Assembly: GCF_903064525.1 (NCBI RefSeq)
Contig: NZ_LR797830.1
Location: 1,178,001-1,242,000, forward strand
Source of the DNA: Methylacidimicrobium sp. AP8
GTDB lineage: Bacteria > Verrucomicrobiota > Verrucomicrobiia > Methylacidiphilales > Methylacidiphilaceae
Direction of reading: 5' to 3'
DNA: 64,000 nucleotides
A program made the position numbers and the translations under genes. Shown one piece after another: positions 2,157-39,342 of this stretch (positions are counted from its first letter, which is position 1; every line of letters starts with the position of its first letter). The notes under the pieces were generated by a model. The model was not told where the DNA came from, searched no databases, and was given only the letters and a program-made list of their open reading frames with translations.

Positions 2157-3110
2157 GCGCCGCGATCGCATTGGCGGTCGCCTCCGGCTTGCTCCTTGCT
2201 CCGATTCGGGCGGAGGGGGTAGCCCTCTCTCCGTCCCCTCGTCCTCTCGATATTTCGCCGGAGAATTGGCAGAGGATCTTTCCGGAGTACCGCAGGTCAT
2301 CGTCGCCCGCCTCAAGGCCGCCAACGGCATCACCTACTACGAGTTCGTCGATTGGGATCCCAATCCACCCCGCACGGGCCTCGGAGGTACGATCGCCTAT
2401 GTCTTTGCATAAAACGGGGAAGTCCGGGTTCCCTGGCGCTTCCAGTGGTTCAGCAATGATGCTCCCCCGTGGATCCCGTGGATCCGCCTAGCGGCCATTT
2501 CTCACAAATTTCGTAGCCGAGGCGCCGCAAATGGGCTTGGGTGCGAGGCGGGCGCAGGTTTTCCACCGGAGCTGTATGAAGACATACTGCGAGGATGGAA
2601 AACCAAGCGGGAGCGAAGCAGACGAGCCCGTTTTGCAAGCCGTAGGAGAAAGCTTGTGAGAAATGGCTGCTAGGGCTCAGCTTTCCCGAAGCGGTCGCCA
2701 TGGTAAAGCAGCGGTATCAAAAGTACATCCAGGCCTTTGGCCTCGAAGAGGCGCAGCGAGCGTCGGTTGGTATGTATACGGACAAAGGGGTTCGGACGCC
2801 CATCGACTATTACTATCCCGAGGTAATCGAGGCTCAGAAGGAGTTGGGTCTTCTACCCAAGGATTTCATTCCTCCCGCTCTTTCCCCGCGGCGCGAGCGC
2901 TACTTGCGGATCATGCTCGGGCGGGAAAAGCCCAAGAGCCAGTTGACCGAGGAGCAAAATCGCAAATTTGGCGAGAAGCTCTCGGAGCTGATTCGCGCCA
3001 ACGCCCGCGGGGACAAAGCGGCCAAGGAAAAGGCCAACCGGGAACTTGACGAAATCGCGTACCCGAATCCCGCGGGACAAACCGTTCCGCCCATGCAAGA
3101 GCAGCGGTGA
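2157..3110 (+). pseudogene. Secreted-protein family, copy D, broken by frameshift, stop and MITE
   Basis: A diverged family member closer to the gene at 50371-51210. Its signal-peptide core and PRPLDISPENW are in one frame to about 2280. The frame then shifts to VPQVIVARLKAANGITYYEF, an in-frame TAA interrupts at 2410-2412 where relatives have a KNG/KDG lysine, and a 178-bp MITE splits it at 2491. Removing the MITE and one CTAG duplication rejoins PPWIPWIRL to GLSFPEAVAM exactly in frame, proving a single ancestral gene. The 3' part runs to the TGA ending at 3110 and includes YYPEVIEAQKELGLLPKDF, as in relatives. The gene is dead. Confidence 0.85.
2492..2669. mobile_element. MITE copy 1 (178 bp), inside secreted-protein gene
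   Basis: The terminal inverted repeat CGGCCATTTCTCACAA is matched at the right end (one mismatch here), flanked by the 4-bp duplication CTAG at 2488-2491 and 2670-2673. The interior is a long imperfect palindrome containing GGTTTTCCACC and GGATGGAAAACC arms. There is no transposase. The CTAG target fits the YTAR target of IS5-group transposases (established for IS5). Identical-length copies lie at 29285, 34957 and 39165. Confidence 0.9.
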
Positions 3111-3228
3111 TGGCTATACCGCAGCGCGAATCATAACTCTTGGGCGCCACGGCCGGAGTCGCCCATCCCTTCGCTTCCCCGATCGTTCATCCGACAAGGA
3201 GCGCTGGGATGCCCTTGCTATGAAAGGA

Positions 3229-3705
3229 CTACCGAAGGACGGGGACGGTCTGGTACGTCCCCGGGTAGGTTACTCCGCTGGCGTCATCCTTCCGGGAAGG
3301 CACATAGGTGCTCCGGTAGCTCGGCTCATTGACGCGCTGGTTGTAGGGATAGACGTCGTTCTTTTTTAGGTCGGCCTCGTTTTGGGCGAGCTCGGCCAGC
3401 GCCTGCGCCTTTCCGACGGCGATCCCTTTGTGGTAAGCATCCATCCGCCGCTTGTCGTTGTACTTCTGAAGCCCGTATTCTCCGACCGCGCCCACCCCCG
3501 CGCCGGCGGCGCCGGCGGCTCCGCTGCCTCCCAGTTGTCGACCGGCGAAATATCCGACGGTTCCCGCCCCGCCGATGCTGCCGTAGCGGACCGCGGCATC
3601 CGTCATGGAGCGGGTCGGACTGTCGTACTGGTTGTAGACCTCGTGGGAACAGCCTGCGGTGAACAGGATGGCGAGCAGGGAGCCATAAAGGGGAATCTTT
3701 TTCAT
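3229..3705 (-). CDS. Outer-membrane lipoprotein with glycine-zipper segment
   Basis: A 158-residue protein with a lipoprotein signal (lipobox LFTAGC, Cys19). It is followed by a Gly/Ala-rich stretch at about residues 43-78 (GGAGTVGYFAG, GAAGAGVGA) resembling a glycine zipper that could insert in a membrane, then a charged helix and a tail ending in YPGTYQTVPVLR. It is the last gene of the minus-strand secretion operon and is paralogous to the gene just upstream. A TraT-like surface-exclusion role is possible for such a lipoprotein in a conjugation locus, but that is inference. Confidence 0.7.
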   Translation of the reverse strand: MKKIPLYGSLLAILFTAGCSHEVYNQYDSPTRSMTDAAVRYGSIGGAGTVGYFAGRQLGGSGAAGAAGAGVGAVGEYGLQKYNDKRRMDAYHKGIAVGKAQALAELAQNEADLKKNDVYPYNQRVNEPSYRSTYVPSRKDDASGVTYPGTYQTVPVLR

Positions 3706-3727
3706 CTCGAATCCTCCGTCCGGGTCG

Positions 3728-4217
3728 TCAGCGGTAGACCGGGACCGTCTGATACGACCCGGGATAGGTGACGCCCGTGCTCTCGTCTTTCCGGGAGGGA
3801 ACGTACGCCGTCCGGTATTTGGGATACCCGACCTTCTTTCCTTCGGGCGGAATGCCGTACTCCGCCTCTTTCTTCCATTTTTCGTTTAAAATGTCGGCCG
3901 TAACCTGAGCCTTGCCGTCGGCCACTCCTTGCTCGAAAGCGTCCTTCCGCTTCCGATCGTTGAACTTGTTGACCGCCCACTGCCCGAGAACCCCTACCCC
4001 GGCCCCCACCGCGCCGGCGGTCGGTGTCCCCGATCGCCTTGCCCGCAAAGTAGCCTCCGGCGCCCGCGGCGGCCATCGAGCCGTAGCGGACGGCGTTGTC
4101 GGCCACTAGCTGGCCGGTCGAATCGCCCTGGGTATACGGCTGGCTGGCGCAGCCGCCGGCAAGGATGGCCAGGGCCAACCAGGTGAGTCTAGGGAATCGG
4201 AATGGTTTTTCGCACAT
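3728..4217 (-). pseudogene. Paralogous glycine-zipper lipoprotein, frameshifted
   Basis: ATG at 4217 gives MCEKPF, then a lipobox (ILAGGC), VRYGSMAAAGAGGYFAGKAIGD and a break near 4020. The rest (AGAVGAGVGVLGQWAVNKF to YPGSYQTVPVYR) continues in another frame to 3728. The two pieces align end to end with the 3229-3705 protein, so one gene carries a one-base indel in a C/G-rich run. The start overlaps the end of the upstream gene (stop at 4189), consistent with operon translation. A TTG at 4226 is an alternative start. Confidence 0.7.
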
Positions 4218-6672
4218 AGGTCGCAATGCCTCCGGTTTTATCCTCTATTAGGTTTTCCCAAAGCAGCCGGTCGGTGAGGATCGCGGTCATGATCGCCTGC
4301 TCGAGCATCCGCATCTCCGAAGCCCAGCCGAGCTCGCCCCCCTTCGCCTTCGCCATCCGCACGACGACCGCGCGAAGGAAAAGCGGATGCTCCTTTAGGG
4401 CGAGGGCGAAGGCGTTTTTCCAGCCGTCCAGCGCTTCTTTTCTGGAAAGAATCCATTGGGCGACCACGGGCGATTGGTCGCCGAACTTGGTGACCAGGAA
4501 GACCGATCTCTCCCAACCCTCCCGGAAGGAGGGGTCGGACAGGCAGCCGGAGAGAATCTGCCGCGTAGCGGTCGGATCTTCGGCAAGGATCTGAAGAAGA
4601 TCGGTGGTCTTTCCGAGGGACCGGGCGAATTTGTCCGCCAGCGCTCGCGCCTCCGGCCGCTCGAGCACGTTTTTGGTAGCGGTCACGAGCACGCCGTTGA
4701 GATCGCTGAGCCCGTCGGAGTGAAGCACCGCCTCGACCAGAAGTGCGCGATCCTGCGGGGAATCCCACAGCGCGTCCCAGACGCGGCCGCAAGCATCGGC
4801 CACCGCGTAATCCCATCCGGCGATGGCGCGCAACGCGGCTTCCGGACCCCCGTAGGCGACCAAGGTGTCGGCCGCTCGCTCGCAGGCGGTTTTGGCGCTC
4901 GGCAGGTAGGCGAGCCCTCCGTAGCCGCGCCAAAAGGCTTCCGGATCGGCACGCCAACTGGTCAGGAAAAGTCGGCGAAGCTCCTCGGCCACGCCCACTT
5001 CCCGTTGCAGCCGGCGGAGGATGAGCTCCCAGCCCGTCTCGCTCGCCCACTGGGAGAAGGCTTCCACGAAGAGCTGAGCCTCCTCCCCAAGCACCGGGCT
5101 ATTCTTTTCTAAAGCCTGCCGCAGCTGGTCCCCCGCCTCCTGGAGCCACGGGGCATAGGCGGGAACGGCCACGCGTGCCTGCGGCCGCGAAGTCATCCAC
5201 CGGCCGAAGGCGACGAATGCCTCCTGATCGTTGTGCAGCAGCGTATCGAGCCAAGCCAAGGCGCATTCCGGGGTCACCTGCACGAGCAGGGGAAAGACCG
5301 AGAGCAAAAAGGGCGAGCTTAGCGGAGTTCCCTCCTCTTTGTTCACGAACAGAGAGCACCAGGCCGAATCGCTCCTTTCCAGCAAGGAAGCGATGACTCC
5401 GCCTACGCCCAGGAGCGAGTTCCGATCGAGCTCGCCCCGGGAAGAGCTCCGGCGGATCTCGGCCGCGCTCTTCCCCCGTGTCGCCTCGCAGAGGCTCCAC
5501 CAGGGAGATTGCTCCAGCTGGCCCGCCAACTCGATCTGCCCTTCCCAAATCGACTGCAAGGCTTTGCGGACAACCCCCTCGTCTTGCCGCAGCGCGTGGA
5601 CAAGGGCGCTTCGGGTCGCCTGCGCCGCCGCTTCGGCCGGCCGCGTCAGATGCCAGAGAAGGAAGTCGGCGTAGCGGTCATCGGTCATCAAGAGAGAAGC
5701 GAGCTTCTTCTTGGCGAGGGGCAGGAGGCCGCCGCCCGCTCGGGGCCCCACCAGGCCTTCCCAGAGCCATTTGGCCCGACCGACAGGTGTGGGGTGGAGG
5801 AAATCGATGGCGAAGTAGTGGCGGAGGAAGTTGTCCCCCTCCACCGAGTCGAGAGCGGTCTGCAAGGTCTGCACGAGCCACCGGCGGCTCGTGGAGGAAA
5901 AGAGCAAGCGGTCGCGGTATTCCCGGAGGAGAGGCGGATCTTCCACCAGGGAGCGCCAGGCGAGCTGCCAGAGGGTATCATAGAAGGTTGCTTCCTTCTT
6001 GGGAAAGGTCGTCAAAAGGAGCAGGGCCCCCCCTCCCTCCCCGCCCAGCGTGCCCAGCCTCTTTGCGGCCTCCCACCGGGCTTCCAGGCCCTCGGGCTTC
6101 TTGGGCGGGAGGAGAAGGGAGCGCATCGCCGTCTCCATGACCGAACCGGGGAAAGCGTCGGGATCGTCATGCTCCCACGCATCGATGGCGAAGAGAGCCG
6201 ACGGGTAGCCGGACGGCGTCGAGAGCAGGTAGTCCCGGACGGCCCCGACCGCACGCTGGCTTGTGGAAAGGCTTGTCCAGAGACGGCAGTGCCCTTCCCG
6301 CGCCAACTCCTCGACCTGTTCGCGGGCTGTCCGGCTGCCGACCCGAAGGATCTCGAAGCCTCGCGTCAACGCATCGGCCAGCAACCCGTCCCCACGCAAA
6401 AGATCGCGTCGGATGAGGGCGGACGACTCGTCCTTTCGGAGGAATTGCAGGAGGATCGTATCCAGCCAATCCGGTCGCAGAAAATCGCGCCCGTTGCCCG
6501 AGCTGATCAACCATTTCAAGGTCCGGTCCTTCCATCCGGTCTGGGCGAGCACCGGGTCGAGATCTACGGCTTCGGACAAGGTTCCCGCCCGCAGCGCAAG
6601 GGTCCCCGCTCCGATCCCGAGGATCAGGAGAAGAGTCGCCGACGTGGATAACCGGCGCCTGGACGGTTTCAT
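4189..6672 (-). CDS. Large exported protein of the secretion operon, unknown
   Basis: An 827-residue protein. The start at 6672 is chosen because its ATG overlaps the TGA of the VirB4 gene (ATGA) and leads straight into a basic N-terminus and hydrophobic stretch (SATLLLILGIGAGTLAL), a signal peptide or anchor. The remainder is helical and Trp/Leu-rich with no motif I recognise; the pattern could be an alpha-solenoid. Translational coupling to the VirB4 ATPase suggests a periplasmic or inner-membrane part of the same apparatus. The longer upstream extension to 6984 is out-of-frame overlap with virB4 and is rejected. Confidence 0.7.
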   Translation of the reverse strand: MKPSRRRLSTSATLLLILGIGAGTLALRAGTLSEAVDLDPVLAQTGWKDRTLKWLISSGNGRDFLRPDWLDTILLQFLRKDESSALIRRDLLRGDGLLADALTRGFEILRVGSRTAREQVEELAREGHCRLWTSLSTSQRAVGAVRDYLLSTPSGYPSALFAIDAWEHDDPDAFPGSVMETAMRSLLLPPKKPEGLEARWEAAKRLGTLGGEGGGALLLLTTFPKKEATFYDTLWQLAWRSLVEDPPLLREYRDRLLFSSTSRRWLVQTLQTALDSVEGDNFLRHYFAIDFLHPTPVGRAKWLWEGLVGPRAGGGLLPLAKKKLASLLMTDDRYADFLLWHLTRPAEAAAQATRSALVHALRQDEGVVRKALQSIWEGQIELAGQLEQSPWWSLCEATRGKSAAEIRRSSSRGELDRNSLLGVGGVIASLLERSDSAWCSLFVNKEEGTPLSSPFLLSVFPLLVQVTPECALAWLDTLLHNDQEAFVAFGRWMTSRPQARVAVPAYAPWLQEAGDQLRQALEKNSPVLGEEAQLFVEAFSQWASETGWELILRRLQREVGVAEELRRLFLTSWRADPEAFWRGYGGLAYLPSAKTACERAADTLVAYGGPEAALRAIAGWDYAVADACGRVWDALWDSPQDRALLVEAVLHSDGLSDLNGVLVTATKNVLERPEARALADKFARSLGKTTDLLQILAEDPTATRQILSGCLSDPSFREGWERSVFLVTKFGDQSPVVAQWILSRKEALDGWKNAFALALKEHPLFLRAVVVRMAKAKGGELGWASEMRMLEQAIMTAILTDRLLWENLIEDKTGGIATYVRKTIPIP

Positions 6673-9335
6673 CGTATGGCCATCGGTTCCGCAGGAATCG
6701 CGGATTTTCCCGCCGCCTCTTCGCGCACCCCGATGGGGAACCGGCGAGCCAGGGAAGAGAGGGCTTGAGCCAAGTCGTTGGGAAACGCTTCCCGGGCCGC
6801 CTTCCAAGCGGGCAGGTCGGCGGGCGTGGTCGTCGTCAGCCAATACTCTTCGGGCTCGATCTCCACGCGCACGATCCCGGAGAGGGCATCGGCGCCCCTG
6901 CCCCGCAGGTAGAAGGCCTCTCGCCAGAGCTCGACTTCCCCATCGGGGTGGAGGCGGGCCGCGTTCCGGAGGTTGAGCAGACAATCGCGTTGCCCCTTGG
7001 TGAGCTCAAGCTCCTTGACGGCGAACTCGACGTGCTGCTCGCTTCCCTGCGGCAGCATGATCCAGGTATCCACGTTCTGGATCACCGCCTTGGCCACCTT
7101 GGAGTTGTCCGTTAGATCGAGGATTGCCTGGGATTCCCCGACGATGGCGCACCGTTTCTTGCGGTACGTTTTGAACGCGTCGACGATGAGGTTGGCGCTC
7201 GTCGGGTTATTGATGTGCTGCCACATCTCGCCGAAGACCAGGATCTTGAAGACCTCCGGATGCGAAAGGATCATGTCGCTTACGAAGAGGGTCGACATGG
7301 GAATCAGGGCGGCCGCCAGGGTCTCGTCCTTGGCGACATGCTCGAAGTCGAAATGGACCACCCGGCTTTTCAGGTGGAATTGGGTTTCTCCGTTGAACCA
7401 ATCCCGATAGCGCCCCTCGCTGAAGGGCTTGAGCCGTTCCGCCAGAAAACGGGCATCGGACCGGTAGGCGAGCTGCCGGGTGAAGTCGCTGAGCGTGACC
7501 AGCTGCTCGCGGTTCTTGACGGCGTTGGAAAAGGTCTGCCGCGTGATCGCCTCAAGGATGTTCCTCCCTTCGGTCGAAAGCCCCTCGTCCTGGCCGGCGT
7601 TCGCCAAAATCTCCAGGCAGTTGATGACCTTGGCGAGCTCGGCCGGCTCCGGTTCCCGAAGCTCCCCGGAGGCGGTCGCCCCGACGTAAACCTGGAACGG
7701 GTTGAAGCAGATGGGATGACCCGCGTCGAGCCGGACCGTGGTTCCTCCGAGAAGCTCGACCAGCCGATCGTAGCTCGATCCTTTGTCGATGATGAGGAGG
7801 ATCGAGTCCGGACCGATATGGCGGAGGACGATCAGCTGGGCGAGCACGCTCTTCCCGGAGCCTTTGACCCCGCTCACGTAGAGCATCGTCGCCCCTTCGT
7901 TCCTCTTGTCCTCCAGATCAAGAGCGACGAGGCCGCCGGTGGTGTTCCCGAAGAGGTGAACCGGCCTTTCCTGAGTTTCGAGGCCGCGGAAAATAGGCAT
8001 TAGATCGGCGGCCATTCTGGCGCGGACAAGAAGGGGCCGGAGGAGCGGGGCGTAGACCCCCGGCATTTCGGTCATGAAGACCGGCAGAAGGCTCGATCGC
8101 TCGATCCAGCCCCGCGCACGGGAGAGATCGCCGAACCGGTTGAGGATCTGCTTGGCCCGGCGGCGAAGCTCGCTCGCCTCCCGATGCCAGGAATGGACGG
8201 TCAACTGGATCTGGACAAGGTCGTCGGCCCCGGAACGCACATCGCTTAAGAGCGACTGGGCCTCCTCGATCTGCATCCAGGCCTCGATATTTTGAACGCC
8301 GGATTCGCGGCGATCATCATGCGGCTTATGGAGCATGTCGATTAGGTTCAACCCCATCCGCATCCGCTGGTCGGCCCAGTCGATCCGGTTCCGCAGCTTC
8401 TCCATTTCCGCCAGCTTGCTTGTTCGCCGGACGATCAAGCTGACGCGGACATCCCGGAACGGAAGACCGACCGTCATCCGCTCCATGTCCCGGGGGCGCG
8501 TTTCGAGCGGAAGACTGACCAAAGAAACCAAGCCGTGGGCATAATCGCCGATCCGCAGGTGATCGGGCTCTACCCGGACCTCTTGGAGCATCCAGGCGTC
8601 GACGAAGGGCATCCGGTTATAGTCGTAGTTGACGCGCATGCCGTTCTCCACGGCGAGCCCGGGATTCCAGAGGCGGAAGAAATACTCGGCGATTCCGTGG
8701 GCATCGAGCGGGCTGACGCGGGCACCGGCGCGTCGCGCGGTATCGACAAAGACCGATTCGGCCATTTCGAGGCTGTGCACCGCCGCATCGAATTCGGCGC
8801 GCGTGATCCGCCTCCGTTCAATGGAGGGGGCTCCTTGGCCGCTCACCCGCTGGGTCCATTCGCTTCCCCCCTGCCCGGATTGGTGGCTCGGGACGGCCGT
8901 AAGGATCGTGTGCGTTTCGATCCAGACCAGCTTTCGGGCCACCATCCGCTCGGAGAGCCTCCGGGCCTTCTCGGCCCGCATCGGAGCGACGGACGGATGA
9001 GAGGGGATACGCGCAAACTCTTCCAGGACAGGACCGTAATCCCCGTTGCAGGTGAAGAGGTGCTGGGTTTGGGCGATTTCCGGAGGCAGCTGCGTCAAGA
9101 GCAGCCGGAGCTGCTCCTGGAGCTCGGAAAGCCGCTCGGGACTCGCAATGTCGGCCTGCGGGAAGTAGGTGCGGTAGAAGGCATGGACCGCCCCGAACTT
9201 GTCGACGAGAAACCGGTCGTACAGCCCCACGTAGGGGCAGGCGTCGCTCCAGTCATGGAACACCGGCGTTTTCTTGGCATGGAAGAGCTGGGTTTTTTCC
9301 CATAGCCTCCGCGGTGGGGCAAAGAAGGTGCTCAT
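6669..9335 (-). CDS. virB4: VirB4/TraC-type secretion ATPase
   Basis: An 888-residue ATPase that energises pilus biogenesis and substrate transfer at the inner membrane. The N-terminal half has the VirB4/TraC-type layout. Walker A is GVKGSGKSVL at about residue 483, followed by LLIIDKGSSYDRLVELLGG and FNPFQV as in this family. The expected Walker B is KILVFGEMW, with Gly in place of the usual Asp. Family members usually have DE, so this is a notable deviation, though the Glu is kept. It overlaps the VirB3-like gene by ATGA upstream (9332-9335) and the 827-aa gene downstream, so the three are coupled. No membrane segment is seen. Confidence 0.9.
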   Translation of the reverse strand: MSTFFAPPRRLWEKTQLFHAKKTPVFHDWSDACPYVGLYDRFLVDKFGAVHAFYRTYFPQADIASPERLSELQEQLRLLLTQLPPEIAQTQHLFTCNGDYGPVLEEFARIPSHPSVAPMRAEKARRLSERMVARKLVWIETHTILTAVPSHQSGQGGSEWTQRVSGQGAPSIERRRITRAEFDAAVHSLEMAESVFVDTARRAGARVSPLDAHGIAEYFFRLWNPGLAVENGMRVNYDYNRMPFVDAWMLQEVRVEPDHLRIGDYAHGLVSLVSLPLETRPRDMERMTVGLPFRDVRVSLIVRRTSKLAEMEKLRNRIDWADQRMRMGLNLIDMLHKPHDDRRESGVQNIEAWMQIEEAQSLLSDVRSGADDLVQIQLTVHSWHREASELRRRAKQILNRFGDLSRARGWIERSSLLPVFMTEMPGVYAPLLRPLLVRARMAADLMPIFRGLETQERPVHLFGNTTGGLVALDLEDKRNEGATMLYVSGVKGSGKSVLAQLIVLRHIGPDSILLIIDKGSSYDRLVELLGGTTVRLDAGHPICFNPFQVYVGATASGELREPEPAELAKVINCLEILANAGQDEGLSTEGRNILEAITRQTFSNAVKNREQLVTLSDFTRQLAYRSDARFLAERLKPFSEGRYRDWFNGETQFHLKSRVVHFDFEHVAKDETLAAALIPMSTLFVSDMILSHPEVFKILVFGEMWQHINNPTSANLIVDAFKTYRKKRCAIVGESQAILDLTDNSKVAKAVIQNVDTWIMLPQGSEQHVEFAVKELELTKGQRDCLLNLRNAARLHPDGEVELWREAFYLRGRGADALSGIVRVEIEPEEYWLTTTTPADLPAWKAAREAFPNDLAQALSSLARRFPIGVREEAAGKSAIPAEPMAIR

Positions 9336-9730
9336 CGGGAGGAGTGCGGTTCGAAGATCGACGCCGGATCGAAGCGGGTCAGGACATTGTGAAAACGATG
9401 CTCGTAGCGCTTTGGGAGCTGGTGATAGTCCGCCATCAGCTTCAGGAAATCCTTCGGCTTGTCGTTGAGGTAGATGCGCAGGAAAAGGTAGACGGCCACG
9501 AAGGCGATCAGGCAGAGAAAGAAATTCTTGGTGATCTTGTGGAGCGTGATGAAGACGAGCGCGGGCACGAAGATCAACGGCCCTTCCAGGCCGAGAAAGG
9601 TGTCCTTCTCGTTGGCCAGCACTACCGACCGGGTGACCGGCAATCCGCCCCGCCTCTCGGGACCGCGTTGCAGGTTGGAGAACGAGTAGGCGGGCTGGAA
9701 GCCGACCACTCCCGGCGTTCGATCGGTCAT
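9332..9730 (-). CDS. VirB3/TraL-like inner-membrane protein
   Basis: A 132-residue protein with a short polar N-terminus, then two closely spaced hydrophobic segments (PLIFVPALVFITL and FFLCLIAFVAVYLFLRIYL at about residues 50-88) and a basic C-terminal tail. The size, paired membrane segments and position directly before virB4 with an ATGA overlap match VirB3/TraL proteins. These sit in the inner membrane and work with VirB4. Sequence identity to known members is not obvious, so the call rests mainly on context. Confidence 0.65.
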   Translation of the reverse strand: MTDRTPGVVGFQPAYSFSNLQRGPERRGGLPVTRSVVLANEKDTFLGLEGPLIFVPALVFITLHKITKNFFLCLIAFVAVYLFLRIYLNDKPKDFLKLMADYHQLPKRYEHRFHNVLTRFDPASIFEPHSSR

Positions 9731-9839
9731 GGGCGTCGATGGCGGAAGGAACTGGTTCTGCGTCCCGGAGATGGGCTCGGAATAACAGCAGAGTCGACCC
9801 TCGCGTCTTCCCTCCCTGATAGGCCGGCCGGCTTTCCGG

Positions 9840-10109
9840 TTATGACCCCGAGAAGCTTTGCAGGAAGATCTGCCCGAGTCCTGTCGCGCTCACGATCACC
9901 AGGGCTCCCGCGAAGAACGCAAACCAGCGCTCGGTTTCGACCGTGTGGATCGAATGCGAGAGCCCCAGGTAGATCGTATAGAGCGAGAGCAGCTCCAAGC
10001 TGACCGGTGTCAGAATCTGCTCGTAGGCCGTCTGCACCACCGAGATCACCGGCTGCGAGAGGCTGGCGGATTGCGCAAGAACCAGAGGCAGGAGCGGTTG
10101 CGGATTCAT
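9840..10109 (-). CDS. Small membrane protein, second pilin-like candidate
   Basis: An 89-residue protein with a hydrophobic start (PLLPLVLAQSASL) and two later hydrophobic stretches, one around LELLSLYTIYLGL and one around FFAGALVIVSATGL. It lies between a VirB2-like gene and the VirB3-like gene, where TraA/VirB2 and small TraL-like proteins occur. It could be a second pilin or an assembly factor; no motif decides. The 109 bases to the next gene (9731-9839) hold nothing recognisable. Confidence 0.5.
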   Translation of the reverse strand: MNPQPLLPLVLAQSASLSQPVISVVQTAYEQILTPVSLELLSLYTIYLGLSHSIHTVETERWFAFFAGALVIVSATGLGQIFLQSFSGS

Positions 10110-10187
10110 CTGTCCTCGTCGTTTGCCGATTCTTCTTCGAGCCGTTGCCCTCGGCGGCGATTTGCGGCCGCGGTCGGCGGAAGGCTC

Positions 10188-10532: not shown

Positions 10533-10542
10533 GGAGGTGGGA

Positions 10543-10549
10543 ATAGGAC
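10543..10549 (-). promoter_or_regulatory. GTCCTAT box upstream of pilin gene
   Basis: On the minus strand this reads GTCCTATTCCC and ends 10 bases before the ATG at 10532. It is one of many such boxes upstream of genes in this element; see the corresponding finding. Confidence 0.45.
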
Positions 10550-26526: not shown

Positions 26527-26583
26527 TCCGGGTAAAAAATAGAACGCAGGAACCGATGCGCCATGTGGCGCACCGATTCCGGC

Positions 26584-26590
26584 GGCCTAT
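26584..26590 (+). promoter_or_regulatory. GGCCTAT box upstream of coupling protein
   Basis: It lies 13 bases before the ATG at 26604 and inside the longer 26556 reading frame. It therefore supports the later start for the coupling protein. Confidence 0.35.
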
Positions 26591-26603
26591 TCTCCGTTTT
26601 GCC

Positions 26604-28760
26604 ATGCTCGAAAAGTTGCAGACGCTGGGCCGAGCCTTCGGCAAGCGGATTTTGGCTCCGCTCTCCGCCGATCCGAAGGCGCCCAAGGCGACGCTCGCCG
26701 CCCGCTCCACCGGAACCGACTACTGGAAACGGGCGCCGATCGGCGAAGGGGAATACGGAGCCCTCCGCTTCCGCGTGGCCACCGAACCTCAAGAGCTGGT
26801 TGACGAGCGGGGGCGGCCGCTCACGATCGGGGATCTTTACTCGCACGCCAGCATCATCGGCGGGTCCGGAGCGGGAAAGACGCGCTATGTGCTGACCCAG
26901 ATTCTCGAGAGCCTCTTCCGGGCGACCGACCTGCGCAACCCGGAAGCGCGCCGGGCCCGTAAATTCGGCGGCCTTTTCCTGGACGGAAAGTGCGAGCTCA
27001 CCGGAATTCTCCGGTGGCTTGCCCAGAGGTACGATCGAACCGAGGATCTCCTCCTTTTCGGGCCGGACCACGATCTGGCCATCGATCCGTTCAACGATCC
27101 GGACGCGCTGCCCTCGGAGCTGGGGGATCTGATGATCACGCTCAAGCAAGCGGTGGACGACGGAAAGACCGCCCAGGATCCGTTTTGGGATGCGGCGGGC
27201 CGGAAGCTGTTCACCTCCCTCTTCCAGCTCCACCGGGCTCTTGTCGCGGCGGCGCAGGAGGGGTTGATCGAAACCCCGCCTCCGCCGATCTCCTTTTCCC
27301 TCTTGAACCTGCTGGTCATGGATCGCGGGCTTCCCTCCAATCAAGCACAGATCACCCAGGCGGAGGCGCTCATCAAGGAGCTTCGCGAGAAGGCCTTTGC
27401 CTGCTTCGAAAAGCTCTCGCGGATCACGAACCGGGTCGAGCCCGAGATCCCCATGCTCCTAGCCCGGATCAAGAAGAGCCTTCGTTCCGTCCTGGAGGAA
27501 GACCGTCCAACCGAAGACGACGCGCGGGAGGCCTGGCTCCTCCGGCGTAGCTCCTTCGAGACGGCGGTAAGGCTCCTCGAAGGGGATCCGCAGCCGAAGC
27601 TCCGGGGGTCGCCCGCGGCCTGTCCGCTCCTCGCCTATCTCCCGCAGGTCCGCACGTTGCGGACGATCCTTTACACCCACCGGGTCGACGAGGAGCTCTA
27701 TGAAAGGGCGGCCGGCATCCTCGAAGAGGTCGCCCACCGTTTCCGCGGCCTCATGCCCCACTGCGAGCTGCTGCCGGAGCGGGGCGGGGAGCTGCGCGAT
27801 CTCTTCCTTGATTTTCTGAGCGAAGCCGACCAGGCCGTCGCCCTCCTCTCGGAGCTGAGCCGCACGCCGGTGCCGGCGCCGGAGCATGGGCCGCTCCAGC
27901 AATGGCTCGAGCAGTACGAGCGGGTCCTGCGGAGGCGGGGCGTGGAGCCCAATTCCGACGAGATCTACCTATACTTCCGAGGTGAATACCTCAACATCGC
28001 CAACGAACGCACCTCCGGATCGATCGGCATGACCGTCTCCACCCTCACCTCGCTGATGACGCAGCCCCCCTTCAGCTCGATGGTCCGACCCGGTGGCCGT
28101 CTCACCTTCCGCGACGTCATCGACCAGGGGAAAATCGTGGTCCTCGACATGAACTTCGCCCGCTGGCGCAACGCGGCGAAGGTGGCCAGCCTCCTGCTCA
28201 AGCTCGACTTCTTTCGGGCGGTGTTGGCCCGGAAGACCTTGATGAAGGAAGACAAGACCCCGATCAACCAGGAGCGCCCCGTGATCTACCTCTGCGACGA
28301 GTTCGCCACGGTGGCCACCACCGGCGACTGGACGGGAGAGCGCGGCTTCTTCGACAAGGCGCGGGAATACCGCTGCGCCTGCATCATCGCCTTCCAGTCG
28401 CTGGCGGTCTTGGAAGGCCGCCTGCCGAAGCCCGAAATCGAGGCCATCCTCACCAACACAGCGACCATGATCTTTCTCCGGAATCCGCACACGGCAACCA
28501 ACGAGTTTGCCTCCCGCCTCTTCGGCGAGGTCGATCGCAGCGATGGATTTCTCTCCCGCGGAACGCAAGAGCTTCTCTTCGATCTGAACAAGCCGATCGC
28601 GGCCCAGGATTTCCAGATCAACTTCCGGAAGGACCTGCTCTACTCGCCCTATGTTTTTCCGAAGCTCAAGGACGGAGAAGCGATCGTGAAGCTCCATCCC
28701 CGCTTCGGGCGCCGGAGCTTCAAGCGGGTGCAATTTCTTCTGCATCTGGTTCCGCGATAG
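26604..28760 (+). CDS. virD4: VirD4/TraD-type coupling ATPase lacking a membrane domain
   Basis: 718 residues from ATG 26604 (MLEKLQTLGRAFGKR); 26556 is an alternative start. Walker A is IIGGSGAGKTRYVL at about residue 90. FGGLFLDGKCELTGIL and HDLAIDPFND follow as in coupling proteins. Walker B is PVIYLCDEFATVA near residue 560, followed by KAREYRCACIIAFQSL and IEAILTNTATMIFLRNP. Type IV coupling proteins bring substrates to the channel and normally carry two N-terminal membrane helices. None is visible here, and the protein begins with a basic soluble stretch. The next gene encodes a small membrane protein that could supply the anchor. Confidence 0.85.
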   Translation: MLEKLQTLGRAFGKRILAPLSADPKAPKATLAARSTGTDYWKRAPIGEGEYGALRFRVATEPQELVDERGRPLTIGDLYSHASIIGGSGAGKTRYVLTQILESLFRATDLRNPEARRARKFGGLFLDGKCELTGILRWLAQRYDRTEDLLLFGPDHDLAIDPFNDPDALPSELGDLMITLKQAVDDGKTAQDPFWDAAGRKLFTSLFQLHRALVAAAQEGLIETPPPPISFSLLNLLVMDRGLPSNQAQITQAEALIKELREKAFACFEKLSRITNRVEPEIPMLLARIKKSLRSVLEEDRPTEDDAREAWLLRRSSFETAVRLLEGDPQPKLRGSPAACPLLAYLPQVRTLRTILYTHRVDEELYERAAGILEEVAHRFRGLMPHCELLPERGGELRDLFLDFLSEADQAVALLSELSRTPVPAPEHGPLQQWLEQYERVLRRRGVEPNSDEIYLYFRGEYLNIANERTSGSIGMTVSTLTSLMTQPPFSSMVRPGGRLTFRDVIDQGKIVVLDMNFARWRNAAKVASLLLKLDFFRAVLARKTLMKEDKTPINQERPVIYLCDEFATVATTGDWTGERGFFDKAREYRCACIIAFQSLAVLEGRLPKPEIEAILTNTATMIFLRNPHTATNEFASRLFGEVDRSDGFLSRGTQELLFDLNKPIAAQDFQINFRKDLLYSPYVFPKLKDGEAIVKLHPRFGRRSFKRVQFLLHLVPR

Positions 28761-29236: not shown

Positions 29237-29709
29237 ATGTCCAATACGCTCTCCCCCCGATCTCCCTTAGCTCAACGGCTTTCACGGCCATTTCTCACAA
29301 ATTTCGTAGCCGAGGCGCCGCAAATGGGCTTGGGTGCGAGGCGGGCGCAGGTTTTCTACCGGAGCTGTATGAAGACATACTCCGAGGATGGAAAACCAAG
29401 CGGGAGCGAAGCAGACGAGCCCGTTTTGCAAGCCGTAGGAGAAAGCTTGTGAGAAATGGCCGTTCACATCTCTGCTTGGCCTTCGTGGCCTTTTCGGCGG
29501 TCCGGGACGCGGCGGCACTTCTTTCCCGTTCCCGGCACGATGCCAGCCGCTTTCTTTGGCAAGGAATCGCCCTGGCCGCCGCCGCCGGATGGGGAAAGAC
29601 GGGTCAGAGCCTGGAACATTGGCTGCTGGAGCTGGGAGCGATGCTGGAAGGGGGATTTCAGGAGATCGGAGGACACCGGCGGCACGATCCCTCTTCCCGC
29701 CTCCGCTAA
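29237..29709 (+). pseudogene. Small gene split by MITE copy 2
   Basis: ATG at 29237 after ACGAGGAG begins MSNTLSPRSPLAQRLS and is cut by the 178-bp MITE at 29285-29462. Removing the element plus one TTCA duplication continues perfectly in frame as HLCLAFVAFSAVRDAAALL to the TAA at 29709. This gives a 97-residue ancestral protein with a hydrophobic start and a helical C-terminus (LEHWLLELGAMLEGGFQEIG). It sits in the coupling-protein operon; function unknown. Confidence 0.8.
29285..29462. mobile_element. MITE copy 2 (178 bp)
   Basis: It has perfect 16-bp terminal repeats CGGCCATTTCTCACAA and the direct duplication TTCA at 29281-29284 and 29463-29466. It interrupts a small gene. It differs from the other copies by a few substitutions, such as TTTTCTACC in the left arm. 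Confidence 0.9.
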
Positions 29710-30348: not shown

Positions 30349-30357
30349 ACCGGGAGC

Positions 30358-32037: not shown

Positions 32038-32113
32038 AGGAGGGTTCGCGGCCGGCCGAGCGGGCTCGGGGACGAGCGGAAAAGAGCGGCAACCATCCAC
32101 CCTGCCAAAAAAA

Positions 32114-33670: not shown

Positions 33671-33717
33671 GGCGAAACCGGGCTGCGGCTGCGGCGCACC
33701 CGTGGACAAACTTCTTG

Positions 33718-34716
33718 TCAGGGGCGGGAGAGCACCCGCGAAGGACCCGGCGGACCGGCATGCCCGTTTTGGTGCCCGCCGACGGTTGCCGGCGCCGCAT
33801 CGGCGGCCGGCTCCTCCCCCGGCCGGTCGGCGGCAAGGATGAGGGAGCGCAGCCGCGCGGCCAAGGCCATCGGGTTTTCCTCCAAGTACTTCCGGTCCTG
33901 CGGCAGGGGAATGAGGCCGGCCACCAGAAACCGGCTCCACTCCAAGAGGGTGAGATGGCGGCGGCGGATGCGCCAGCAGTCGCCGAGCAGCCGGACGATT
34001 TCCGGCGGGGATGGTTTCTTCCTTACCCCCGGGTGCTGGCGGAGCTGGTTGGCGGCGGCCACCAGCGGCTCGCAGAGCTCTCTGGTAGCCCAGGGCCAGG
34101 TACGCTGGATCAGCCGGATTTCGGTTTCCGGCGCGGGCCATCCCATGTAGACGGTGCGGCAACGGCGGATCAGCGCCTCGGTCGCATCCCGGAGATCGTT
34201 CTTGGTGATCGCCACAAAAAGATTTCCGGGATCGGCGCGCAGCTCGCCTCCGAGCTGAGGAACCGTGATCGCGCCTTCGTTGAGAAAATCGAGCAGAAAG
34301 CTGTCGACAGACACGTCGGCCTTGTCGAGCTCGTTGAGAATCAGGACCGTCTTCTGCCCCCTGGAAGCCGCAATCGCCTGGGGGAGAAGGCCTTCGACGA
34401 ATCCCTGCCCGTCCAAGGAGCGATCCCGAAGGAGTTCCTCCTTTCCGCAGCCCGGGAAAAACTGGAAGAGATAGCGCTTGGCTCCCAAGATCCGGGCGAT
34501 CGCCTTCCCCAGAAAAGTCTTGCCGCAACCCGGCGGTCCGTCGAGAAGAACGGCTGCCAGCGACTCGTCCGTTCCCATCGAGTGGACGGCGCATTCCACC
34601 GCCAGCACCGCCGCCGGATCCGTCAAAATGTAGTCCGGAGGGAAGACGAGCCGGGGAGCGGGTTCGAGGCTTCTCCCATCGGACCCCGGGGATCCGGTTG
34701 CCGGCGGACTCTCCAT
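33718..34716 (-). CDS. MoxR/dynein-type AAA ATPase
   Basis: 332 residues from ATG 34716 (MESPPATGSPG). Walker A is LDGPPGCGKTFLGKAI at about residue 60 and the Walker B equivalent is TVLILNELDKADV, with Asn where Asp is expected but the Glu kept. GELRADPGNLFVAITKND carries sensor 1 and ALIRRCRTVYMGWP the arginine finger region. MoxR-type ATPases remodel partner complexes. The longer frame to 35103 runs through MITE copy 3 and is an artefact of that insertion. Divergent CCTAT boxes lie just upstream. Confidence 0.75.
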   Translation of the reverse strand: MESPPATGSPGSDGRSLEPAPRLVFPPDYILTDPAAVLAVECAVHSMGTDESLAAVLLDGPPGCGKTFLGKAIARILGAKRYLFQFFPGCGKEELLRDRSLDGQGFVEGLLPQAIAASRGQKTVLILNELDKADVSVDSFLLDFLNEGAITVPQLGGELRADPGNLFVAITKNDLRDATEALIRRCRTVYMGWPAPETEIRLIQRTWPWATRELCEPLVAAANQLRQHPGVRKKPSPPEIVRLLGDCWRIRRRHLTLLEWSRFLVAGLIPLPQDRKYLEENPMALAARLRSLILAADRPGEEPAADAAPATVGGHQNGHAGPPGPSRVLSRP

Positions 34717-34717
34717 C

Positions 34718-34734
34718 GTCCTACTCCATAGGTT
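34718..34734. promoter_or_regulatory. Overlapping divergent CCTAY boxes
   Basis: GTCCTAC (34718-34724, plus) faces the ATG at 34735, and AACCTAT (34728-34734, minus) faces the ATG at 34716. The arrangement is the same as at 25178-25193. The 18-base gap leaves almost no room for leaders. Confidence 0.4.
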
Positions 34735-34938
34735 ATGGAACCAATTCGTTTTTCCGTCATCCCGTTTCCCGACGAGTGCCGCGTATGCCAAGCCCGGAAT
34801 GGGCGAGAGCTCGGGCCGTGGCTCGACAAGGCGAACCCTTCCGCCTTCGGCCCCTTGACCGCCGGCGGAGAAGAGCGGATGCCGACCCGTCCCGAACCCG
34901 AGCGGAAGAGCATCCGTTGGCGCGATCGGCGCGACTGA
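34735..34938 (+). CDS. Small hypothetical protein
   Basis: 67 residues (MEPIRFSVIPFPDECRVCQA). It has one CxxC pair and a basic C-terminus (KSIRWRDRRD). Support is the ATG placement just after a GTCCTAC box and the compact divergent arrangement. MITE copy 3 begins 18 bases after the stop. Function unknown. Confidence 0.4.
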   Translation: MEPIRFSVIPFPDECRVCQARNGRELGPWLDKANPSAFGPLTAGGEERMPTRPEPERKSIRWRDRRD

Positions 34939-34956
34939 GCGCCTTTCCTCCTCTAA

Positions 34957-35134
34957 CGGCCATTTCTCACAAATTTCGTAGCCGAGGCGCCGCAAATGGG
35001 CTTGGGTGCGAGGCGGGAGCAGGTTTTCCACCGGAGCTGTATGAAGACATACTGCGAGGATGGAAAACCAAGCGGGAGCGAAGCAGACGAGCCCGTTTTG
35101 CAAGCCGTAGGAGAAAGCTTGTGAGAAATGGCCG
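34957..35134. mobile_element. MITE copy 3 (178 bp)
   Basis: Perfect CGGCCATTTCTCACAA terminal repeats, with CTAA duplicated at 34953-34956 and 35135-35138. It is inserted 31 bases upstream of the gene at 35166, so it may have displaced or supplied that gene's promoter. Its minus strand is open throughout and fuses in frame with the AAA ATPase frame. Confidence 0.9.
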
Positions 35135-35165
35135 CTAATCGCCGGATCGCCTCCGGAGCCGGACG

Positions 35166-36359
35166 ATGCACGAGGTCAACGGGTTTGCTCTGCTCAACGA
35201 GGCCGAGGTCGCCTTGGTGCTCGGCCCCTCTGGGCAGGGGAGCGGACCGATCGTCCGGATCGGCGCGCCTTCGCTGAGCCGCGCCGGGATGGAGGCCCTC
35301 CGCCGAGAAGCCGAATCTCTTTCCGGACAATGGCCTCGGCTGGCGCGCACTTCCGATCCGGGTTCCCTCCTTGCGGAGCGATTGGAGCGGATGGCGGCCG
35401 CGCAAGAGGCCCGGAGCGACAGCGCCGCTTGCTCGGCGACCGCGATGGCCCTGCGCGATCCGCAATGGCGCACCAATCCGGCCGTCCTCGCGGATCTGGC
35501 GCGCGTCACGGATCGGATGGGACGGCCTTGCGCCGTCGCATCGGAGGCCGAGGGCGGGACGGAAACGGCCGTCGAGGGCGACCGGATTCCCTCCTTCGAA
35601 GAGTTTGTCTCCAGCGTCCATCGGAGCCTGCCGGCGGAGCAGAGACGCCGGTTGGCCAACCTCTACGAGGAGCTTGCCGCCGCTTACCGGAGCCGCTACG
35701 AGGCCCTTTTGCGATACCATTGGGTTCTCGCCGGCGCAGAAAACGCCCGGCAACGGTCCTGCCCCTGGTCGGCCAAGGGCTACTATCGGCCGATGCGGGA
35801 CGGACGCGATCGGGTGCTCGCCGATGCCCAGGGACGGATCTTCTTCGAGTACGTGAATCCGGCCTCTCCGACCCGCTGGGCCCGCAAGGCGGCCCGGGCG
35901 GCCGCCCTCGCCTGCGGGAGCGGCCGGGAGCAGGCCGACCGGTTCGCCGAGCGCTTCCACTTTTTGGACATCGCGGCCGGGGAGCTTCGGGCCGGGCTCG
36001 AGAACACCGCTTCCCACTTCTTCCATATGGTCAACAGCAAGAACGTCACCGATCCCTATGCGCGGGCCTTCGCCATCGTGTTCTGGTCGGTGAAAGACTT
36101 CCTGGACAGCCGGAGCGGGGAATATCCGGAGGTGGTTCGGGGTGCCGCCCTTCGCGAAGCGGCCGGCAAGGCCGCGGCTTTGCTCGCGCTCCCGCAGGAG
36201 CGGGCCCGGGCGGAGGAGGAGCTGGCGGCGATCGATCGCCGAATCGGCGCGCGGGAGCGCGAGATGGAGGCGGTTCTCGGGCAAAACGGGTGGAGGCCGG
36301 GGGAACGGAGGGCGGCGCCACGGGCGCCCGTGGCGCATGGCGGCGACCGGAGCCGATAG
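35166..36359 (+). CDS. Hypothetical soluble helical protein
   Basis: 397 residues from ATG 35166 (MHEVNGFALLNEAEV). The body is helix-rich, with FEEFVSSVHRSLPAEQRRRL, YRSRYEALLRYHWVLAG and FHFLDIAAGELRAGLENTAS, then a C-terminal coiled coil (ALPQERARAEEELAAIDRRI). No signal or membrane segment is present. No family is recognised. The MITE immediately upstream leaves no CCTAT box in front of it, unlike neighbouring genes. Confidence 0.6.
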   Translation: MHEVNGFALLNEAEVALVLGPSGQGSGPIVRIGAPSLSRAGMEALRREAESLSGQWPRLARTSDPGSLLAERLERMAAAQEARSDSAACSATAMALRDPQWRTNPAVLADLARVTDRMGRPCAVASEAEGGTETAVEGDRIPSFEEFVSSVHRSLPAEQRRRLANLYEELAAAYRSRYEALLRYHWVLAGAENARQRSCPWSAKGYYRPMRDGRDRVLADAQGRIFFEYVNPASPTRWARKAARAAALACGSGREQADRFAERFHFLDIAAGELRAGLENTASHFFHMVNSKNVTDPYARAFAIVFWSVKDFLDSRSGEYPEVVRGAALREAAGKAAALLALPQERARAEEELAAIDRRIGAREREMEAVLGQNGWRPGERRAAPRAPVAHGGDRSR

Positions 36360-36366
36360 GTCCGTT

Positions 36367-36375
36367 GTCCTAAAG
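36367..36375 (+). promoter_or_regulatory. GTCCTAAAG box upstream of sigma-like gene
   Basis: The sequence TTGTCCTAAAGAAAGGAAGC leads into GTG at 36385. The other sigma gene has CCCTAAAG at 14035, so both sigma-like genes share the CCTAAAG variant. Confidence 0.35.
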
Positions 36376-36384
36376 AAAGGAAGC

Positions 36385-37473
36385 GTGAAGCTGGCCGGAG
36401 AGGACTCGCCGGAACCCGGCGGCGGGAAGAGAAGCCCGATCCCTTGGGCGGAGGAGATCGCCCGCTATCAAGAGAGCCTGCGTCGGGAAAAGCTCGCCCT
36501 CTTGGCGGTTCCGGCGGTTCGCGGGATCTTGGTCGAGAGGCTTCTCTCGATGCACGAGCCGAGCCGGCAGCGCCGGATCAACGCTGCCGAGGTCGTCGGA
36601 TTGATCTCCCGCCTTCGCAGCCAGCACGCTCCGGCGCTGGAGGCCGTGCTCGCCGCTTTGGACCGGTTGAAGCTCAACATATTCTGGTGGAACACGCTGC
36701 GCGAGGCGGCCGAGGAAGACCGATCCGGCGCGGCAGAAGAGTGGCGCCGGTGTCGCTCCAATCTCGCCGCAGTCGCGGAACCCCTCCTGGTCGTCGGCTT
36801 GCGGATCGTCGAGCGGTTTGTTTCCGAGGAGCAGAAGCCGGAGATCCGCGAGGCGATCCGAAGCGACGGCATCATCGGCATCTACCGGGCCTTGGAGCGC
36901 TTTGATCCCGGCCGGAACAAATCCTTCCCCCAGTACGCGACCTACTGGGTGCGGAACGAGATCGCCACGGGAGCGCTTCGGTCGCGCGTCGTCCCGCTCA
37001 CGGGCCATGGCCGGCGCAAGCAACGAAAGGAAGCGGTCTCGACCTCCGACCCCGAGGCCGCCTCTCCTTCTCCCGAGCTCCACCTGCTCAGCTTGGACGC
37101 GCCAGGGGCGGCGATCGATTCCGAAGAGGAAGGGGGCTCCCTGCACGAGGTTCTCCCCGATCGCAAGACCTCACCGCCACTTCTCGACGCCCAGGAACTG
37201 ATCCGGGAGTGGCTCGAGATTCTCCAGGACTGTCCCGACTCTTTGCGCGCCTTCCTGGTGCTCCGCTACTACTTCCCCGTTTGGCCGGCGGAAGCCGTCG
37301 GCGCGGTCCGCGGAGCGGAGGTGTTCGAGGCGCTAGCGCCCATGGCGCGCGAAAGGCTGACCGCAGCTACGTCGCCGATCCGGATTTCGGGTTTCCGACA
37401 TCCCGCCTGCGCACCGAGGGACCGCCACCTCTCGGGCACAAACGTTGCGAGACCGGCAGGCTACCGAGAATGA
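36385..37473 (+). CDS. Sigma-70 region-2-containing protein, second element sigma-like factor
   Basis: About 362 residues from GTG 36385 (AAAGGA five bases upstream); ATG 36337 is an alternative that overlaps the previous gene. A region-2 signature is clear at about residues 160-190 (DGIIGIYRALERFDPGRNK, then SFPQYATYWVRNEIATG), matching core-binding and -10-recognition helices of sigma-70 factors. Upstream helices may be region 1.2/2.1. A recognisable region 4 is missing; the C-terminus (LIREWLEILQDCPDSLRAFL) only faintly resembles one. It may recognise -10-only promoters or be an anti-host modulator. Confidence 0.65.
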   Translation: MKLAGEDSPEPGGGKRSPIPWAEEIARYQESLRREKLALLAVPAVRGILVERLLSMHEPSRQRRINAAEVVGLISRLRSQHAPALEAVLAALDRLKLNIFWWNTLREAAEEDRSGAAEEWRRCRSNLAAVAEPLLVVGLRIVERFVSEEQKPEIREAIRSDGIIGIYRALERFDPGRNKSFPQYATYWVRNEIATGALRSRVVPLTGHGRRKQRKEAVSTSDPEAASPSPELHLLSLDAPGAAIDSEEEGGSLHEVLPDRKTSPPLLDAQELIREWLEILQDCPDSLRAFLVLRYYFPVWPAEAVGAVRGAEVFEALAPMARERLTAATSPIRISGFRHPACAPRDRHLSGTNVARPAGYRE

Positions 37474-37640
37474 AACAACCGGCCGACCCAATGGACCACC
37501 GCCTCCATCGCATCGCCCGTCATGTTCCAACCGTTGAGGAGCCAGGAATGGATCGGTTCGGGGGCGAAGCGGTCGAGGGCGATCGCCACGAGCAGGGCGG
37601 TGCCGATATCGACGATGTAGTGTCCAATCTTTTGGCGCAT
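37461..37640 (-). CDS. 59-residue small membrane protein
   Basis: ATG at 37640 gives MRQKIGHYIVDIGTALLVAI, one hydrophobic helix, then a soluble tail with VVHWVGRLFHSR and a TAG at 37461-37463. The composition is protein-like and different from a random frame. The 3' end overlaps the convergent sigma-like gene by 13 bases. It is short, has a weak ribosome-binding site (GGAG about 12 bases upstream) and no known relatives, so the call is tentative. Confidence 0.4.
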   Translation of the reverse strand: MRQKIGHYIVDIGTALLVAIALDRFAPEPIHSWLLNGWNMTGDAMEAVVHWVGRLFHSR

Positions 37641-37786
37641 GCGTAAGACCGTTCTCCGGAATCAGGTTCTTGCCTGCCTGTCTCACGAGGTCGGCATCCG
37701 CGGCGTCCGTCCCTTTTCGGACGCCGGCCCGAGAGAAGCGAACCGGGTTTGCCATAAGTAGGACCAGACCACAAGGAAAGAGAGCG

Positions 37787-38686
37787 ATGGAGGCGGGCCT
37801 GCTGCTCATTCTGTACAGCGGACTTCTCTGGGCGCTGCGGGGAGTGCCTCCGCCGCCGGCTCCTTCCGGCCGGCTCGCCGTTCTCCTCTGGCAGCTGGTC
37901 TGCCTGGGTTGGTGGCCTCATGGAGCGTTCCTCCGTCAAGATCCGAAGGCGAAGTGGATTGCGAGCGCCTGGATCGCGGGGACCTTTTTGCTCGGCCGGG
38001 CCAGCCTTTTCGCTCCCCACTCCCCCCTCGCCTATTCCCTGGATCAGCTCGGAAACGTAGCCGCCGGCCTCTGTCTTCTGGCGGGCTTCGGCTTGGCCGC
38101 GTTCCAATTGCGTGCCCGAGCGGAGGAAGCGACTCCCCGAGCACAGGAGAACCCACCGCCTCCCCGGGCGCTCGTGGCGCTTCGCGAGGACGAAGGGGTA
38201 GTCCGGCTGCCCGGCCATGCGGTGCAAGCCGCACGCCGGTTAGCGCCCAAGCTCTACGTGATGCCGGGCGAAGCGGCGGCTCTTCTCGGGAGAGATCGAG
38301 TGGTAAGCCTGGCGCCATGGCCGCCGGAGGCCGAAGCCGTCGAAACGGCGTTGGTCGCCGTCCAGGAAAAGCTCGCGCAAACCGAGGAACGGGCGCTTGC
38401 CCTAAGCTTGGAAAAGGACCGGGCGATGGCAGGGCTGCGCGCGATCGAAGGACGGCTCGAGGAGCTGGAGCGGGCCCGTTCCCAGCTCGTCAAGGATCTG
38501 GCGCGGATGCGGGCGGAGAGCCGCCTCGGAAGCCAATCGGAATTCTATCGCCTCTCCGAGGAGGAGTTGATCCAAGCGCGCGAGGTCCGGCGGAAGGAGA
38601 TCCTGTGGATCGAGCAGATCCTCGAAGTCCGGCAGAAGGCGGGCGCGGCGGAAGCCGATCCGGCGGCGCCGGAGCCGGTGCCCTGA
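37787..38686 (+). CDS. Membrane protein with long coiled-coil cytoplasmic domain
   Basis: 299 residues from ATG 37787 (AAGGAAAGAG upstream). Up to four N-terminal hydrophobic segments (GLLLILYSGLLWAL, LAVLLWQLVCLGWW, WIASAWIAGTFLLG, LGNVAAGLCLLAGFGLAAF) are followed by a soluble region with a coiled coil (VAVQEKLAQTEERALALSLE, LRAIEGRLEELERARSQLVK). It could be a scaffold in the secretion machine; no family is recognised. Confidence 0.6.
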   Translation: MEAGLLLILYSGLLWALRGVPPPPAPSGRLAVLLWQLVCLGWWPHGAFLRQDPKAKWIASAWIAGTFLLGRASLFAPHSPLAYSLDQLGNVAAGLCLLAGFGLAAFQLRARAEEATPRAQENPPPPRALVALREDEGVVRLPGHAVQAARRLAPKLYVMPGEAAALLGRDRVVSLAPWPPEAEAVETALVAVQEKLAQTEERALALSLEKDRAMAGLRAIEGRLEELERARSQLVKDLARMRAESRLGSQSEFYRLSEEELIQAREVRRKEILWIEQILEVRQKAGAAEADPAAPEPVP

Positions 38687-38698
38687 GCGGCTTCCGGC

Positions 38699-39115
38699 TC
38701 ACCGGTAACCTTGCGGCTTCGGTCGGGAAAGAGGGGGGGAGAATTTTCCGGAGGGAGGGCAGACGGTCCAGCGGCAGCCGGTGCAGACGTCGAAGAGGGT
38801 CACCCGGCGCCAGCCGAAGTGAAGGAACGGGAAAAGCAGGCGGAGAACGCCGCGGGCCAGCGATCGGGCGAGCGTGAGCCGGCCGGCGGATTCCAGCCGC
38901 CAGCCGAGAAGCCGATGAACGGGCCGGGAGCCGATCTTCGCCTCCCAGGTAGCGCACCAGATGGGATGAAGAAGAAGGAAGAGCAGATCTCCCGAGCGTC
39001 CTGCGGCCCAAAGGCAGAGGGCCAAGAGCGTGACGGCTTCCGCAAGGCTCGCCATGCCCCGTTCCCAGAGCGCGGGCCGGGCCGGCTTTCCTTCCTTCCG
39101 TTCGACCGCCGCCAT
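38699..39115 (-). CDS. Small membrane protein, unknown
   Basis: 138 residues from ATG 39115. There are two hydrophobic stretches (AEAVTLLALCLWAAG and LLFLLLHPIWCATW) and a C-terminal segment with two Cys in DVCTGCRWTVC. It is convergent with the preceding gene. A GCCCTAT box (39128-39134, minus) lies 12 bases upstream, as for other element genes, which supports it being real. Confidence 0.5.
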   Translation of the reverse strand: MAAVERKEGKPARPALWERGMASLAEAVTLLALCLWAAGRSGDLLFLLLHPIWCATWEAKIGSRPVHRLLGWRLESAGRLTLARSLARGVLRLLFPFLHFGWRRVTLFDVCTGCRWTVCPPSGKFSPPLSRPKPQGYR

Positions 39116-39127
39116 CCTTCCTGTTTC

Positions 39128-39134
39128 ATAGGGC
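39128..39134 (-). promoter_or_regulatory. GCCCTAT box upstream of small membrane protein
   Basis: Minus-strand GCGCCCTATGAAACAGGAAGG runs into the ATG at 39115. The box ends 12 bases before the start codon. Confidence 0.35.
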
Positions 39135-39164
39135 GCCCGTCTCCTTCCGCGACCGGTGTCCTAG

Positions 39165-39342
39165 CGGCCATTTCTCACAAATTTCGTAGCCGAGGCGCCG
39201 CAAATGGGCTTGGGTGCGAGGCGGGCGCAGGTTTTCCACCGGAGCTGCATGAAGACATACTGCGAGGATGGAAAACCAAGCGGGAGCGAAGCAGACGAGC
39301 CCGTTTTGCAAGCCGTAGGAGAAAGCTTGTGAGAAATGGCCG
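39165..39342. mobile_element. MITE copy 4 (178 bp)
   Basis: Perfect terminal repeats, with CTAG duplicated at 39161-39164 and 39343-39346. It sits between a minus-strand gene and a plus-strand lipoprotein gene. The pre-insertion target reads GTGTCCTAG, similar to the element's promoter boxes. Confidence 0.9.

Follow-up and report, generated by a model that had tools for sequence, protein, structure and literature searches.

Organisation of the window and the 178-bp repeats

The window, by which we mean the whole 64,000-nt stretch of the Methylacidimicrobium sp. AP8 genome that was analysed (contig NZ_LR797830.1, positions 1,178,001 to 1,242,000), has over much of its length the appearance of an integrated conjugative element carrying an F-type secretion system. 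A VirB4/TraC-like ATPase and a TraG/TraD-like coupling protein are found at 6669–9335 and 26556–28760. Positions 1–1785 hold a 1.1-kb direct tandem duplication (1–667/1120–1785, 96–99 % identical) that extends to the window edge, and three near-identical 304-aa frames (44674, 45920 and 48586) are arrayed at 44397–49560 around the transposase of the window, which belongs to the ISL3 family (47094–48302); a 98-nt repeat of this array occurs a second time at 57689. Four copies of a short repeat also lie in the window and are listed below, with copy 2 divided into its parts.

2492–2669, plus strand: MITE copy 1, 178 bp; 16-bp terminal inverted repeats (TIRs) with one mismatch; target site duplication (TSD) CTAG at 2488–2491 and 2670–2673
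29285–29462, plus strand: MITE copy 2, 178 bp; perfect 16-bp TIRs; TSD TTCA at 29281–29284 and 29463–29466
29285–29300, plus strand: left TIR of copy 2, CGGCCATTTCTCACAA; 15/16 bases as in one end of the IS1380 copies L066 and L076
29301–29446, no strand assigned: interior of copy 2, an imperfect palindrome of 146 bp without a transposase gene and without detectable similarity to the IS1380 ends examined
29447–29462, minus strand: right TIR of copy 2, the identical 16 bases
34957–35134, plus strand: MITE copy 3, 178 bp; perfect TIRs; TSD CTAA at 34953–34956 and 35135–35138; upstream of a minus-strand AAA ATPase gene
39165–39342, plus strand: MITE copy 4, 178 bp; perfect TIRs; TSD CTAG at 39161–39164 and 39343–39346

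The first-pass annotation had described these repeats as a MITE family, and its account of the four copies was accurate in position, in the length of exactly 178 bp, in the terminal repeats (perfect in three copies, one base off in the copy at 2492) and in the duplications CTAG, TTCA, CTAA and CTAG. At the 29285 copy, same-genus relatives align across the joined flanks without the element, the exact target being poorly conserved.

A genome-wide search with the terminal repeat, which the annotation had proposed as a check, returned many further copies. The 16-bp end occurs 132 times at up to 3 mismatches in the 2,300,970-bp genome (versus 7 occurrences of a reversed control), and pairing of ends gives at least 45 full-length 178-bp copies in these 2.30 Mb, besides one divergent 198-bp copy and several fragments; BLAST with the MITE gave at least 40 matches per search of the genome. 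These counts combine genome searches with individually fetched stretches. Nine of the copies analysed are identical. Outside the host, matches were confined to six genomes of the same genus among the 40 genomes searched, and the element is abundant in two of them. The repeats are short, carry neither a transposase gene nor a long conserved frame, and have 16-bp TIRs, TSDs, an empty site and many near-identical dispersed copies; with their ends, duplications and further copies in agreement with the annotation, they are a real and abundant non-autonomous MITE family. The precise TSDs, the empty orthologous site and the nine identical copies indicate recent insertion, and the family has apparently been active recently.

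The annotation had also held that one strand of the interior is an open frame of about 59 codons, by which insertions could add in-frame extensions to genes. A stop-free frame is indeed present, but the 29285 copy has two, one on each strand, and the stop-free frames differ between copies. The element and one duplication together measure 182 bp, which is not a multiple of three, and insertion therefore shifts the reading frame. One recognisable gene, that of the AAA ATPase, lies beside a copy in the window; its open frame (33718–35103, minus strand) runs back into copy 3, where the in-frame codons that could start it are TTG/GTG only; the ATG in MESPPATG, its likely start, is found some 220 bp downstream from the MITE. 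In-frame extension is not supported, in view of the variation of the frames between copies and of the frame-shifting length.

Target sites and flanking genes

Matching 4-bp flanks were found in 30 of the 43 tabulated copies; among the remainder, several are one base off, and in the others the ends are damaged or were placed wrongly by automatic extension. CTAG predominates in the 30 duplications (17 copies), followed by TTAA (5), CTAA (3), TTAG (2) and TTCA, TCAA and ATAG (1 each), giving the consensus YTAR, as the annotation had maintained from the copies in the window. A sequence preference outside the four target bases was not evident in the 43 copies.

The YTAR target contains TAG or TAA, and many copies lie at the stop codon of a neighbouring frame. 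Among the 31 copies flanked by YTAR on either side, 25 adjoin a frame of 100 codons or more that ends at the flanking TAR, compared with 53 % at other YTAR sites (n = 373; Fisher p 0.002). When a codon-position GC filter was applied, 15/31 copies lay on a stop versus 25 % of the other YTAR sites (p 0.01). Gene-like stops hence host nearly half of the testable copies, about twice the rate at other YTAR sites, which is what a stop-like target that makes insertion harmless would give. Genes were judged by Pfam matches and codon-position GC, since gene calling by codon usage, with the window as training set, proved too weak. Genes with Pfam matches that end at MITE flanks encode a YceI protein, thymidylate synthase (thyA), a TPM protein, a TetR regulator, a DUF202 protein and an IS1182 transposase, and at one flank an FtsK gene and a FabG-like reductase gene converge on a single TTAA. 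The site at locus L244 is empty in three relatives, in which the gene terminates at one lone CTAG and the element is absent.

Insertion at a stop codon is harmless because the duplication of YTAR restores the stop, and the enrichment is most simply read as survivorship. Other copies lie within genes: that at locus L257 interrupts a coding sequence, the alignment of the relatives running unbroken through the site, and at L239 the match to an N-acetyltransferase breaks off after 45 of 240 positions. With regard to orientation, the gene lies to the left of 12 of the stop-codon copies and to the right of 4, a bias that is suggestive and not significant (two-sided binomial p about 0.08).

Candidate transposases

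Mobilisation in trans, as the annotation had stated, is required, the MITE having no transposase gene. MITE-like ends that lacked a second end at the 178-bp distance pointed to elements of 1.71 kb encoding a 462-aa DDE transposase, which matches the IS1380-family model NF033539 (E value 2.8e-118) and PF13701 (E value 3.2e-152). Four 462-aa copies in the genome, among them that at 468342–469727, are full-length and intact, with no internal stops, and the relatives of the transposase include, by name, proteins of Methylacidimicrobium tartarophylax and Verrucomicrobia bacterium LP2A. The ends seen in the IS1380 copies are CCCCCATTTCTCACCA, CGGCCATTTCTCACCA and CCGCCATATCTCACCG, the variation centring on CCCCCATTTCTCACCA; in L066 and L076 one end reads CGGCCATTTCTCACCA and agrees with the MITE end at 15/16 bases, and L076 is an intact copy (508093–509802). 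Every full-length transposase-bearing element with such ends that we inspected belongs to the IS1380 family. The duplications of these elements are CTAG, TTAG, ATAG, TTAA and CTAA, and at three loci a MITE and an IS1380 copy have one CTAG in common.

The IS1380 elements thus resemble the MITE in their ends (up to 15/16), in their 4-bp YTAR duplications and in their presence in the same genome, and differ from it in coding for a transposase and in their interior, that of the MITE being palindromic and unrelated. Taken together, we consider it very probable that the family is cross-mobilised by the resident IS1380-family element, so that the genome of one verrucomicrobial methanotroph would hold both an abundant MITE family and its candidate transposase. 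A pattern in two further genomes (G003 and G006) points the same way: most MITEs there start with CCGCCATTTCTC (CCGCC), as do the IS ends of those genomes, while the host MITEs start with CGGCC. This is consistent with MITE ends that track the local transposase, and shared ancestry could explain it as well. Against IS1380 stands position 15 of the MITE end, which is A and is C or G in every IS end seen; nor does the YTAR duplication by itself point to IS1380, since the IS1182 elements of this genome make it too.

What we propose would be mobilisation by IS1380, not descent from it. Comparison of the main MITE interior with the IS1380 ends gave z below 3 in all cases, and a derivation of the interior from IS1380 by deletion found no similarity to any IS end compared; descent is therefore not supported. 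Such a deletion origin is common among MITEs and is no requirement for being one. A search of the available literature returned no account of an IS1380-linked MITE in the genus Methylacidimicrobium, and the 178-bp repeats are a new family of a kind already known.

In the mechanism that we envisage, the IS1380 transposase (462 aa, DDE) would recognise the shared end, approximately C[CG]GCCATTTCTCACMA, on the MITE as on its own element, and would excise or copy the MITE, presumably by cut-and-join chemistry. The element would then be joined at a YTAR site with a 4-bp stagger, CTAG being preferred, and the site would be duplicated. At the stop codon of a gene, the TAG or TAA inside the duplicated YTAR would leave the protein unchanged, and such an insertion would survive. 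A CTAG left on both sides could serve as a target again, with elements accumulating side by side.

Shared targets of this kind also involve a third element. Pairs of MITE and IS1380, of MITE and IS1182 and of IS1380 and IS1182 share one CTAG at eight junctions, which include a chain of MITE, IS1380 and IS1182 at about 1939216–1942700; the duplicated CTAG evidently stays usable as a target. The IS1182 copies (L361–L366), with ends CAGCCTGTCGG, insert at CTAG or CTAA directly beside MITEs or IS1380 copies. The MITE–IS1182 junction at about 855.7 kb is the same as that at about 1543.5 kb, and the two elements were possibly moved or recombined there as a unit.

Could an IS1182-family element be the mobiliser? 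Its copies duplicate CTAG and CTAA and adjoin MITEs at L361, L362, L363 and L364, and there is a precedent in MITEPye1 of Paracoccus yeei, which has been ascribed to IS1182 and is present in 1–3 chromosomal copies per genome (PMC11578231). MITEPye1 shares with the present family its small size, its non-autonomous nature, TIRs, TSDs, a long predicted hairpin and a proposed trans-mobilisation by an insertion sequence; the differences lie in the element concerned (IS1182 there, IS1380 here) and in the copy number (1–3 there, at least 45 here; PMC11578231). The aligned IS1182 ends, CAGCCTGTCGG, nevertheless match CGGCCATTTCTCACAA at few bases, set against 15/16 for the IS1380 ends. IS1182 was weighed for its shared CTAG and its adjacency and dropped for its differing ends, and we regard it as an unlikely mobiliser.

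The annotation itself had proposed an IS5-family mobiliser from the YTAR duplications. Members of the IS5 group target and duplicate YTAR, and the motif of the MITE duplications fits that group. In this genome, though, IS1380 and IS1182 elements make identical duplications, so YTAR is not diagnostic of IS5 here, and the lesson is that YTAR duplication alone cannot name an IS family. The two IS5 transposase models tested (NF033580 and NF033581) had no genome-wide match above cut-off. The weak matches of NF033581 include IS1182-family elements (for example, 1542185–1543369, which matches NF033551 at 9.7e-92). The search for a full IS5-group element with MITE ends, also suggested by the annotation, yielded IS1380 elements in its place: among the 100 of 132 end matches listed, only MITEs or IS1380 copies were found, and none was an IS5 element. 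The IS1380 identity of the transposase (NF033539 and PF13701), together with the lack of a match above cut-off to these two IS5 models, led us to reject an IS5 origin, and mobilisation by IS5 appears very improbable.

The palindromic interior and related elements

The annotation had described the interior as a long imperfect palindrome, and folding against shuffled sequences confirmed this: the folding energy of the MITE is −88.2 kcal/mol on the plus strand (z −8.3) and −76.4 kcal/mol on the minus strand (z −6.9), with no shuffle as low. An unlikely reading is that the conserved palindromic interior is selected as a portable 3′ end, the hairpin affecting termination or mRNA stability and some copies having been recruited by the host. 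If this were true, the copies at stop codons, with their regenerated stop, would give genes of the host a strong hairpin.

It is highly improbable that the repeats represent no transposon at all but a conserved regulatory or structural RNA hairpin family under selection. In favour of this, the palindrome is strong, the interior averages 87 % conservation over 37 copies from several species and some paired changes occur on both sides; against it, an Rfam search of the window returned no family, and the precise TSDs, the empty orthologous site and the nine identical copies point to recent insertion. In the 37-copy alignment, moreover, the both-sided changes concentrate in the terminal repeats and are sparse elsewhere in the element, a distribution that matching to a transposase explains; it would fit a need for both ends to match the enzyme rather than selection on an RNA. 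A structured RNA was accordingly set aside, for want of an Rfam family and for compensatory changes lying mainly in the terminal repeats, and cross-mobilisation by IS1380 remains our preferred reading of the family.

A second MITE, present as a single 177-bp copy (956802–956978; L072, 803–979), differs from the main family in having an interior derived from IS1380. One of its halves shares 91 % identity with an IS1380 end; the other is that same end in inverted and diverged form (z 6.5), the opposite end being no match (z −0.4). This suggests that two copies of a single IS end, in inverted arrangement, may give rise to palindromic MITEs. Variants of the main family in genome G003 (L125, L128 and L122) have the usual interior with different outer ends, CCTGCCTGTCTCAC; both ends match in L125, and in variants of this type it seems that the two ends changed together, with the interior unchanged.
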